NCBI RefSeq assembly: GCF_023638035.1
Contig: NZ_JAKRVX010000001.1
Coordinates: 186,001 to 250,000 of the forward strand
Length of the DNA: 64,000 nt
From: Natronocalculus amylovorans
GTDB lineage: Archaea > Halobacteriota > Halobacteria > Halobacteriales > Haloferacaceae
Direction: 5' to 3'
A program made the translations under genes and the position numbers. Positions 52,095 through 55,087 of the stretch are shown here, piece by piece. The notes under the pieces were generated by a model. The model had not been told where the DNA came from. It was given only the letters and a program-made list of their open reading frames with translations, and ran no database searches. How positions within the stretch are numbered: position 1 is the first letter of the stretch; each line of letters begins with the position of its first letter.

Positions 52095-52109
52095 TATCTT
52101 CGCAAGATA
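52095..52109. repeat. Inverted repeat next to the halorhodopsin activator site
   Basis: TATCTT-CGC-AAGATA is a perfect six-base-pair inverted repeat with a three-base loop. It abuts the putative activating sequence between the pantoate kinase and halorhodopsin genes. It could be an operator or chance; no partner protein can be named. Confidence 0.4.
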
Positions 52110-52122
52110 CCTTACTAGTATG
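52109..52122 (+). promoter_or_regulatory. Putative Bat upstream activating sequence
   Basis: ACCTTACTAGTATG closely resembles the Bat UAS described for Halobacterium bop-regulon promoters, which I recall as ACC-n-n-ACTAG-TT-n-G: the ACC, the ACTAG core, the following T and the final G agree. It lies 46 bp or so before the ATG at 52169, in the range of the bop UAS. CTAG-containing sites are generally rare in haloarchaeal DNA, which adds weight. Confidence 0.6.
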
Positions 52123-52140
52123 GGAGTCAATTGATATACA

Positions 52141-52147: not shown

Positions 52148-52168
52148 CGTATATATAATGTGTCGTAT

Positions 52169-53032
52169 ATGACAACGACCAGTACGGTATTGTTGGGTGC
52201 ACAGGATACGGTGTTACAAACACCAGAAACACAGGCAGAGATTTTTGAATTTATTTTTAATGACACGCTGCTCGCCAGTTCGTTTGTTGCAAACATTGCG
52301 CTGGCAGGATTAACGATTCTTGCAATCGTCTTCCTTGCACGTGGTGTCAGTGACCCGCGAGCACAGCTCATCGTTATTTCCACGATGCTTATTTCGGTTG
52401 TCTCGATTTCCAGCTACACAGGGCTGACATCTGGACTGACAATAAGTTTCATAGAGATGCCGGCAGGGCATGCCAGAGCAGGAGAAGAGGTGTTGACTAT
52501 GTGGGGTCGGTATCTCACATGGACATTCTCTACACCGTTCATTCTCATCTCGCTCGGGCTCATTGCAGGATCTAATCTAACGAAAATCGGAACATCCGTT
52601 GCGTTCACGATCGCAATGTGTGTCACCGGACTTGCAGCCGCGCTGACAACGTCTTCCGTTCTCATGCGCTGGTGGTGGTTTGTGCTGAGTTCGATCTTCT
52701 TCCTCGTGATCGTCTACATCATTCTTGTTGAGTGGTCTGCAGAGGCAGAGGCCGCTGGAACGTCCGATCTGTTCAACACGTTGAAACTGTTGACTGTTGT
52801 CGGTTGGTTTGGCTACCCAATTCTTTGGGGACTTGGTGTTGAAGGAATTGCAGTGCTCGATGTTGGGTTGACATCGTGGGGCTACAGTATCCTTGACATT
52901 ATCACCAAATACATTGTGACGCTCTTGATCGTCATGTACGTCGCAAAAGAGCCATCCGAGATCACTGCCGGTTCAGACTACGGTGCGACCCGGAAATCTA
53001 AATCTGCAGCTGCAACACCAGCAGACGACTAA
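52169..53032 (+). CDS. hop: Halorhodopsin, light-driven chloride pump
   Basis: This seven-helix retinal protein (287 residues) belongs to the halorhodopsin branch. In helix C it reads GRYLTWTFSTP: Arg114 is kept, the proton-acceptor Asp of bacteriorhodopsin is Thr117, Ser121 is the usual chloride-site Ser, and the donor Asp position is Ser128. The retinal Lys is Lys247 (DIITKY), with Asp243 four residues before it. The GLAAALTTSS and YPILWGLGVEG segments also match halorhodopsins. Light moves chloride inward, helping osmotic balance and membrane potential. ATG 52169 is chosen over GTG 52160. It is followed by a Bat-like regulator. Confidence 0.96.
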   Translation: MTTTSTVLLGAQDTVLQTPETQAEIFEFIFNDTLLASSFVANIALAGLTILAIVFLARGVSDPRAQLIVISTMLISVVSISSYTGLTSGLTISFIEMPAGHARAGEEVLTMWGRYLTWTFSTPFILISLGLIAGSNLTKIGTSVAFTIAMCVTGLAAALTTSSVLMRWWWFVLSSIFFLVIVYIILVEWSAEAEAAGTSDLFNTLKLLTVVGWFGYPILWGLGVEGIAVLDVGLTSWGYSILDIITKYIVTLLIVMYVAKEPSEITAGSDYGATRKSKSAAATPADD

Positions 53033-53119: not shown

Positions 53120-55087
53120 GTGTCCACTGCTTGCGTCTTGAGTGTTCTTCCAGCACAGAACGATCGGCTCCGAGAAGCCTGCTCAGAACGATCGATCGAC
53201 GTTGTGACCGCCCCAACAGTGTCGAACGCCGTGGCTCAGCTAATCGATCGAGAGCTCCCGATAGCGTGTGTTGTACTGTCAACAACAGCAGAGCCCGATA
53301 ACGTATCGGTGCTTGTTAACGCACTACTGCAGTCCGAACAAGAACGACCGTGTCTGCTTGTCGGTCGAGAAGGTGAATCGCAATTTGTTGTGGATGAAGA
53401 CATGATCGAGACGGTTGATTTCGAAGAGGGCCATGACATTGTGCCAACGATCTGCGGCTGGCTACAGAAACAGGACGTAATAGCAGACCAGCGCACGCAC
53501 ACAGTGCCGACCGATGCAGAAATTGCGCATGCGGTCGATAGCGCACCTATTGGAGTCAGTATTACAGATCCCTCACAAACGGACAATCCGTTGGTCTACG
53601 TGAACGAAACATGGACGGAGATGAGCGGATATGAAACGGAGACGCTGCTTGGAAAAAATGCACGAGTGCTCCAAGGTCCGGAAACCGATACCGAGACGGT
53701 TACCAAAATCAGGCATGCAGTTGCGAATAACGAACCGATCACAACAGTCCTCAAGAACTATCGAAAAGACGGGACGTCGTTCTGGAATGAGTTGACACTT
53801 GCGCCGGTTTTTGATGCTAACGGGACGTTACAGCAGTATGTTGGATTCCAAAATGATGTCACTGAACGAAAGCGGGCAGAAGCGCTCGCACGTGACCGGA
53901 CAACGGAGTTAGCAGCAGAACGTGCAGTGTTAGACCGAATTCTCACCCGGATTGATGGACTGTTTGAGCTGGTTGTCGAAGCGTTGATTGAGGAAACCAC
54001 CCGTGAAGCGATCGAGCGACGGATTTGTCGTGCGGTTGTCGAGGCAGATGGCTGCAGTGGGAGTTGGATTGCCTGCGTTGACTCGGAAGCGCTGCATATT
54101 GCAACGACATCGGGGTACACTGTTGAGGGGTCACAGACTGTGTCATATGAGAGACTGTCTGAGCCGATTGTCACTGCGATTGAGTCGACTACTGCAACAC
54201 TGGTTTCGGGTGACCTCTGTACAGAAACACCAATACACCCACAACAGTCTGACGGTGAACAGCTGCTCCTTGTCCCGCTCCACTATGCACCAAAAGAGTA
54301 TGGCGTTCTTGGTATTCATATTGCAGATGCAGACCTTGTCGATGATCGTGAGCTCACGTTATTTGAATCGCTGGGTGCGATAATCGCGACTGGACTCCAC
54401 ATTGTTGAAACAGCGCGAATGTGGACAACAAACCAGATTAATGAGACGACATTTAAAATCGAAGATGAATCATTCCTTTTGAATGAGATTGCAGCACATA
54501 TAGGCACAGATGTTGAATATCTTGGTGTCGGAGCTGGGTCTCAGAACGGTTGTTATGAGCTCTATCTCACACTGTGTTCTCAAGGCTGTAACATAGACCA
54601 GTTGACCGCACTTACACCCGTCTCTGCGGTTCGGCGCATCGATGAGGGAGATGGAAGAACAACAGTTGCACTCACCATGGCTACTACTGCCGTGTTTTCA
54701 TCTTTCGCAGACGAAAACGCACACATCGTACAGGCTCACGCAGATGGAGCTACCGCGGAAGTTGTGGTCACATCACCAGTCGAACAAGATGTTCGGTCGA
54801 TTTACACACGTCTTACGGAGGTGTATACGGGGGTTTCGCTCCGTGCACAAAAAGAGCGAGAGAACCGTAACCCATCACCACCAGAGTTTCAAGCAACGGT
54901 CCGTAGCCGACTAACCGATCGTCAACAGACGGCAATCGAGAGTGCACATCTAAATGGCTATTTCGAGTGGCCACGCTCAGTTGATGGCGATGACCTTGCT
55001 GCAACAATGGACATCTCTCGACAGACGTTCCATCAGCATTTGCGGGCTGCTGAAAAGAAAATCGTCGATGCGTATCTCGACGAATAG
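53120..55087 (+). CDS. bat: Bat-like transcriptional activator with Cys-less LOV domain
   Basis: The 655-residue protein has the Bat layout: an N-terminal receiver-like segment without a clear phosphoacceptor, a LOV-type PAS domain (about 135-250), a GAF-like domain (about 280-420), a Bat-specific region and a C-terminal HTH_10 (from about RLTDRQQTAIESAHLNGYF). In the LOV core it reads GKNARVLQGPETD: Ala181 stands where photoactive LOV proteins have the adduct Cys, but the flavin contacts Asn180, Gln185, Asn213, Asn223 and Gln244 remain. It lies 87 bp after hop and probably activates it through the upstream ACTAG element. Start is GTG. Confidence 0.86.
   Translation: MSTACVLSVLPAQNDRLREACSERSIDVVTAPTVSNAVAQLIDRELPIACVVLSTTAEPDNVSVLVNALLQSEQERPCLLVGREGESQFVVDEDMIETVDFEEGHDIVPTICGWLQKQDVIADQRTHTVPTDAEIAHAVDSAPIGVSITDPSQTDNPLVYVNETWTEMSGYETETLLGKNARVLQGPETDTETVTKIRHAVANNEPITTVLKNYRKDGTSFWNELTLAPVFDANGTLQQYVGFQNDVTERKRAEALARDRTTELAAERAVLDRILTRIDGLFELVVEALIEETTREAIERRICRAVVEADGCSGSWIACVDSEALHIATTSGYTVEGSQTVSYERLSEPIVTAIESTTATLVSGDLCTETPIHPQQSDGEQLLLVPLHYAPKEYGVLGIHIADADLVDDRELTLFESLGAIIATGLHIVETARMWTTNQINETTFKIEDESFLLNEIAAHIGTDVEYLGVGAGSQNGCYELYLTLCSQGCNIDQLTALTPVSAVRRIDEGDGRTTVALTMATTAVFSSFADENAHIVQAHADGATAEVVVTSPVEQDVRSIYTRLTEVYTGVSLRAQKERENRNPSPPEFQATVRSRLTDRQQTAIESAHLNGYFEWPRSVDGDDLAATMDISRQTFHQHLRAAEKKIVDAYLDE

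Follow-up and report, generated by a model that had tools for sequence, protein, structure and literature searches.

The Bat-type regulator encoded beside a halorhodopsin gene in the window was interpreted as a redox sensor: the redox state of the flavin in its LOV domain, and not light, probably drives the activation of halorhodopsin. The observations behind this interpretation are the domain layout of the protein, the presence of Ala and Trp at two replaced positions, the evolutionary order of these replacements, the gene linkage, and a conserved palindrome in the promoter. The window is the whole stretch of DNA analysed, 64,000 nt of Natronocalculus amylovorans (NCBI RefSeq assembly GCF_023638035.1, contig NZ_JAKRVX010000001.1, positions 186,001–250,000 of the forward strand). 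It contained the following features.

52109–52123, no strand: palindromic promoter element ACCTTACTAGTATGG, proposed Bat binding site, with the core CCnnACTAGTnnGG at 52110–52123
52160–53032, plus strand: predicted halorhodopsin gene (Pfam Bac_rhodopsin, E=1e-44; T-S-S motif)
53120–55087, plus strand: gene of the Bat-type transcription regulator (P0001), GTG start, 655 aa
53120–53488, plus strand: receiver-like N-terminal region, residues 1–123 (AlphaFold secondary structure and sequence)
53489–53905, plus strand: Cys-less LOV (PAS) domain, residues 124–262 (AlphaFold pLDDT and PDB LOV matches)
53612–53614, plus strand: codon TGG of Trp165, counterpart of the quenching Trp172 of Halorubrum BAT-LOV*
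53660–53662, plus strand: codon GCA of Ala181 at the adduct-Cys position (by alignment); CCN (Pro) in orthologues
53861–53992, plus strand: long helix linking LOV and GAF, residues 248–291, likely a signalling helix (AlphaFold full-length model)
53996–54397, plus strand: GAF domain, residues 293–426 (Pfam GAF_2)
54443–55066, plus strand: BAT and HTH_10 DNA-binding domains, residues 442–649 (Pfam BAT, E=1e-22; HTH_10, E=3.5e-20)

The bat reading frame was intact on the plus strand. Pfam placed PAS_9 at residues 154–249, GAF_2 at 293–426, BAT at 442–592 and HTH_10 at 598–649, and all four exceeded their cut-offs (33.8 against 28.6 bits for GAF_2). This is the domain order of the Bat (HTH_10) opsin regulators, and it bore out the description of the protein as Bat-like in an earlier note made from the DNA sequence. 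The full-length AlphaFold model (mean pLDDT 81, pTM 0.52), in which the arrangement of the domains is uncertain, gave alternating strands and helices for residues 1–123, as in a receiver. The expected phospho-accepting Asp site in this region was occupied by Ser, and by Glu in the orthologue consensus (register set by eye).

The best-scoring NCBIfam model for the protein was the YtvA blue-light receptor family. Its score of 153 bits lay well below the whole-protein cut-off of 250, because only the LOV part matches; the NifL model gave 75 bits for the same domain. YtvA was also the top PDB sequence match in phmmer (E about 1e-36). The AlphaFold model of residues 124–265 had a mean pLDDT of 93.4, and a PDB search with the LOV model returned LOV domains (Brucella LOV-HK, Meiothermus, YtvA and others; best rmsd about 0.7–1.5 Å).

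The position of the adduct Cys was unambiguous. Residues 180–185 read N-A-R-V-L-Q against N-C-R-F-L-Q of LOV domains, and phmmer paired GKNARVLQG with GKNCRFLQG of YtvA. The Cys of the GXNCRFLQ motif of canonical LOV photoreceptors was thus replaced by Ala181, as the earlier note had stated, and residues 112–303 contained no Cys at all, leaving the LOV domain wholly without it. The flavin-contact set of the canonical photoreceptors was retained together with the PAS/LOV fold, and the five contacts named in that note (Asn180, Gln185, Asn213, Asn223 and Gln244) were all in place. The LOV consensus was kept generally, but not at Val183, where Phe was expected (Phe64 in YtvA); this was the second deviation in the core motif. 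Yee et al. (2015) assigned to the Cys-less LOV* group those domains in which the adduct Cys is replaced and at most one of the remaining conserved LOV residues deviates. Eight of the nine residues in their Methods list were kept here, with Val183 as the exception, and the domain falls into this group by sequence.

With the LOV domains of YtvA, VVD and phototropin, the domain shares the PAS/LOV fold and the greater part of the signature, but it lacks the adduct Cys and has Trp for the usual pocket Phe. It is predicted to hold flavin still while being unable to form the cysteinyl adduct. That it is a flavin-competent Cys-less LOV, as proposed from the DNA sequence at the outset, is well supported by the sequence, by a high-confidence model matching flavin-bound LOV domains, and by published work on how a homologous domain behaves.

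The homologous domain is the Pro-bearing, Cys-less BAT-LOV* of Halorubrum hochstenium Bat, characterised by Yee et al. (2015; PMC4682037). It accepts FAD, FMN or riboflavin; chemical reductant reduces it readily and fully, and its shape changes upon reduction. Its photoreduction is very poor, and Trp172 makes it ineffective. The flavin fluorescence was 0.08 of that of VVD-III, and 0.58 in the triple mutant Y163F:Y247F:W172F, which restored both fluorescence and photoreduction; the Tyr double mutant did not (PMC4682037).

The two proteins have the same receiver, LOV, GAF and HTH architecture, and in both the Cys is absent, the Trp172 counterpart is present and the flavin contacts are kept. They differ in that the window Bat has Ala instead of Pro and Val183 instead of Phe, and adjoins halorhodopsin in a genome in which no bacteriorhodopsin gene was found. 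The Cys-less mode of action that had been proposed as different from classical LOV signalling is not new, having been described for BAT-LOV* (PMC4682037). The Cys-less LOV concept was published in 2015, and the window Bat adds an Ala-bearing case to a class known biochemically, as far as we found, from one Pro-bearing domain.

To place the Cys loss, relatives were gathered from the family of the window protein, from a sample across the class and from three more family searches, and their loci were retrieved. The sampling rests on these family and class searches; a single-sequence scan of genome contigs gave one relative only. Among the 55 genomes of the Cys-less Bat clade that were examined (counted by genome handles), the adduct-Cys position was Pro in 53, Leu in one (G490, L160) and Ala in the window alone. 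The alignment that the earlier note had called for thus gave a negative answer as to Cys-to-Ala, which is not lineage-wide; the loss of Cys is.

A maximum-likelihood tree of 66 proteins was built from an alignment in which residues 165 and 181 had been masked. All Cys-less, Trp-bearing proteins formed one clade of 36 rows (UFB 100, SH-aLRT 98). Within it the window Bat was sister to a Pro-bearing pair (g4; 100/99), orthologues that share its gene order, and a genus that we guess to be Halorubrum-like (g22) fell in the same clade. The next branches outward bore Cys: g3 (Cys/Phe), then g61 (Cys/Tyr), both beside halorhodopsin, and beyond them a broad outgroup that was almost wholly Cys/Phe or Cys/Tyr. 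Placement of the window Bat outside the clade, with the other Trp rows grouped without it, was rejected by the AU test (p-AU 0.0004).

Since the Cys-less clade is nested among Cys-bearing proteins and the window protein lies among Pro rows, the sequences indicate that Cys was lost once in this lineage and that Pro later gave way locally to Ala. The codons at position 181 (GCA in the window, CCN in orthologues, TGY in Cys-bearing homologues) fit the order Cys, Pro, Ala. A direct Cys-to-Ala change was rejected, as the sister and surrounding lineages have Pro (CCN), which is one base from GCN.

Yee et al. proposed for LOV domains in general that the Cys-less state is ancestral and that Cys-bearing regulators arose from such redox flavoproteins (PMC4682037). 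For the Bat protein this order is very improbable, given the nesting of 36 rows (100/98) within Cys-bearing proteins; the argument bears on the Bat family only, not on LOV domains generally. Cys-less ancestry found no support in our tree, and in the Bat family the Cys-less LOV domains appear, from the sequences, to derive from Cys-bearing ones. The nested Cys-less clade is new here.

Residue 147 (53558–53560), which we take to lie near the active site by alignment with plant LOV2, was Ser in 33 of the 36 Cys-less clade members and Thr in 25 of 28 Cys-bearing ones. Outside the clade, L123 and L125 formed a separate Bat-like lineage in which His occupies the adduct position and residue 165 is Phe; Cys seems to have been lost there independently. 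In L123 the Bat gene was linked to bop- and brp-like genes in a Halobacterium-like order. Like the window Bat, Halobacterium salinarum Bat is an opsin regulator with PAS, GAF and HTH_10 whose gene is linked to that of an opsin; L123, Halobacterium-like by gene order only, is His/Phe and outside the clade, and its Cys loss looks independent. Another apparent loss was seen in a long-branch relative beside halorhodopsin (L101, 5983–8028), with a decayed LOV motif (D-H-T-L-L-Q) and no Trp165. In the genome of the window, the LOV-like PAS proteins L004 (853–2727) and L007 (1309–1836) also had Pro in place of the adduct Cys, which was retained in L002, L003 and L005.

The residue most decisive between light and redox, Trp165, was not mentioned in the earlier note. 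By ungapped count back from Pro188/Ala181 it corresponds to Trp172 of Halorubrum hochstenium BAT-LOV*. Position 165 was Trp in 55 of 55 Cys-less Bat-clade genomes, and Phe or Tyr in all of the approximately 55 Cys-bearing homologues examined. Exactly one Phe/Tyr-to-Trp change was needed in the tree, on the branch of Cys loss. Because this is a single event, the association of Cys loss with Trp gain carries no statistical weight; the weight of the argument lies in the long retention of Trp and in the published mutant. Trp165 was among the 23 invariant columns of 115 in the LOV domain of the clade, as were the flavin-contact residues. The window protein, in which Ala stands where the others have Pro, may mean that the constraint falls on Trp and not on Pro.

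Yee et al. described the Trp as unconserved, with Phe in most BAT-LOV* homologues (PMC4682037). Their homologue list consists of Cys-less LOVs of varied architectures, whereas in the Bat clade proper Trp is invariant. A rule that Cys loss requires Trp was rejected, as His occurs together with Phe or Tyr in L101, L123 and L125. The Trp/Tyr residue reported for Lake Diamante archaeal LOVs (PMC12202551) was also set aside; from its description it is probably the counterpart of a C-terminal-strand Phe, Tyr240 here, and not of Trp165.

The halorhodopsin gene lies upstream of bat on the same strand, 87 bp away, and its start is more likely ATG at 52169 than 52160. A microbial rhodopsin gene is thus linked to the regulator, as in Bat opsin-regulator loci, and the earlier note was right to call the neighbour halorhodopsin: it is a Bac_rhodopsin by Pfam, and its T-S motif is of the halorhodopsin type, predicting a chloride pump. 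At the positions of bacteriorhodopsin 85/89/96 it has T-S-S and not the usual T-S-A. The third position varies in close relatives, with T-S-S also in L084 and T-S-V in L068, L072 and L073.

Upstream of halorhodopsin were genes of a GHMP kinase, a phosphopantothenate synthetase (PPS) and a molybdopterin-binding oxidoreductase; downstream of bat were aspS, an amino-acid permease and a PcrB family gene. The closest relatives (G006 and G007; 48% identity over the compared region) keep the order molybdopterin gene, PPS, GHMP kinase, halorhodopsin, bat, aspS, PcrB, without the permease. The genome has two rhodopsins, halorhodopsin and a DTY-type sensory rhodopsin (L051, L179); ahead of the latter, on the same strand, lies a 569-aa ORF that looked by eye like a membrane transducer. 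Bacteriorhodopsin was not among the rhodopsins found (assembly 99% complete), so that a 'bacterio-opsin activator' is present apparently without bacteriorhodopsin. One Brp/Blh-type gene (PF15461) was found elsewhere in the genome.

The promoter element ACCTTACTAGTATGG lies 46–60 bases before the halorhodopsin ATG at 52169, and its core CCnnACTAGTnnGG at 46–59. The string ACCNNACTAGTNNGG had a single exact match in the 3.26 Mb genome, at the halorhodopsin promoter, and the core match there was 10/10. Among 48 opsin promoters, which are not independent (several are from close relatives) and whose start codons were set by a simple rule, the core was matched at 8/10 or better in 34 and at 9/10 or better in 26; the chance levels in Markov-resampled sequence were about 4% and 0.3%, respectively. 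In 32 of the 34 the site started 53–59 bases before the start codon.

The element was found beside Cys-bearing and Cys-less regulators alike, and the DNA target therefore seems to have been kept while the sensor chemistry changed. The UAS of bop is reportedly ACCcnactagTTnGG, which CCnnACTAGTnnGG resembles, so that a candidate activator sequence of the kind expected for a Bat-regulated opsin promoter is present at 52110. In other papers, the UAS at bop, brp and crtB1 was tied to Bat. A literature search for the exact UAS string returned only noise. As judged from its sequence, the palindrome is a candidate target of the window Bat in the halorhodopsin promoter and its likely binding site. One-mismatch matches were not used as a further regulon, because the reversed control gave 38 against 17 matches. 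The DTY sensory rhodopsin was rejected as a Bat target, its upstream region scoring 6/10, the background level, and having no palindrome.

These features can be assembled into the following proposal. When oxygen falls, the LOV flavin would be reduced, and Gln244 may read the protonation of flavin N5. The LOV domain would then change shape, as in BAT-LOV*, and the signal would travel along helix 248–291 to GAF/BAT and HTH_10. HTH_10 would bind to the palindrome, which lies ahead of the TATA region of halorhodopsin, and activate the gene; the window Bat thus probably switches halorhodopsin on. Trp165 would drain the excited flavin, keeping sunlight from giving a false signal. The proposed principle, control of output by flavin redox state, is like that of the flavin PAS redox/oxygen sensors E. 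coli Aer and Azotobacter vinelandii NifL, but the window domain is LOV-like by sequence and is linked to a DNA-binding domain.

The earlier note had set blue-light sensing through a semiquinone beside redox or oxygen sensing. We favoured a redox (low-oxygen) sensor over a blue-light one because the corresponding Trp in the protein of Yee et al. acted as a quencher of the flavin and held back its photoreduction. Halobacterium, where Bat induces bop under low oxygen as well as under illumination (PMC2253796, PMC3184054), also speaks for this reading. Photoreduction to the neutral semiquinone would make the window Bat a natural counterpart of the VVD and YF1 C-to-A mutants, and Ala is the exact laboratory replacement that still signals in both (PMC4682037). 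The N5-proximal Gln244 is kept, Bat systems control light-harvesting opsins, and light is among the inducers of bop. Such sensing, however, predicts efficient photoreduction of the wild-type domain, and in BAT-LOV* with Trp172, the counterpart of Trp165, ineffective photoreduction went with a fluorescence of 0.08 of VVD-III, until the triple mutation restored both. As the Trp is fixed throughout the Cys-less clade, the Ala-bearing window Bat included, the light reading is weakened and is rather unlikely, and the redox/oxygen alternative is the better supported.

Other observations go against the redox reading. In H. salinarum bop was light-induced when Bat, Brz and Brb were all present (PMC2253796, PMC3184054), so that a Bat system can respond to light, whatever the route. 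The Cys-less LOVs of L101, L123 and L125 combine His with Phe or Tyr. Yee et al., with Phe in most of their homologues, argued for an integrated redox/light sensor (PMC4682037). It is also conceivable, though less probable than blue-light sensing, that the LOV domain no longer signals by flavin and has become a PAS domain with a structural role or another ligand, with control passing through GAF, the receiver-like region or partners. These other domains could be sensors, the core motif deviates at both Ala181 and Val183, and BAT-LOV* expressed in E. coli carried only modest flavin (PMC4682037). Yet N180, Q185, N213, N223 and Q244 are invariant over the long branches of the Cys-less clade, which is hard to explain without flavin.

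The fixation of Trp165 wherever Cys was lost in the Bat clade, contrary to the 'unconserved' of the 2015 study, makes the light-versus-redox question for Bat testable by one point mutation. In haloarchaeal opsin control a blue-light LOV regulator may have been converted once to a light-insulated redox switch, a broader proposal that we put forward tentatively. Cys loss and the quenching Trp fall on the same branch, and if the proposal is true, the regulator of light-driven pumps would read oxygen or redox state undisturbed by the intense light of the cells' habitat.
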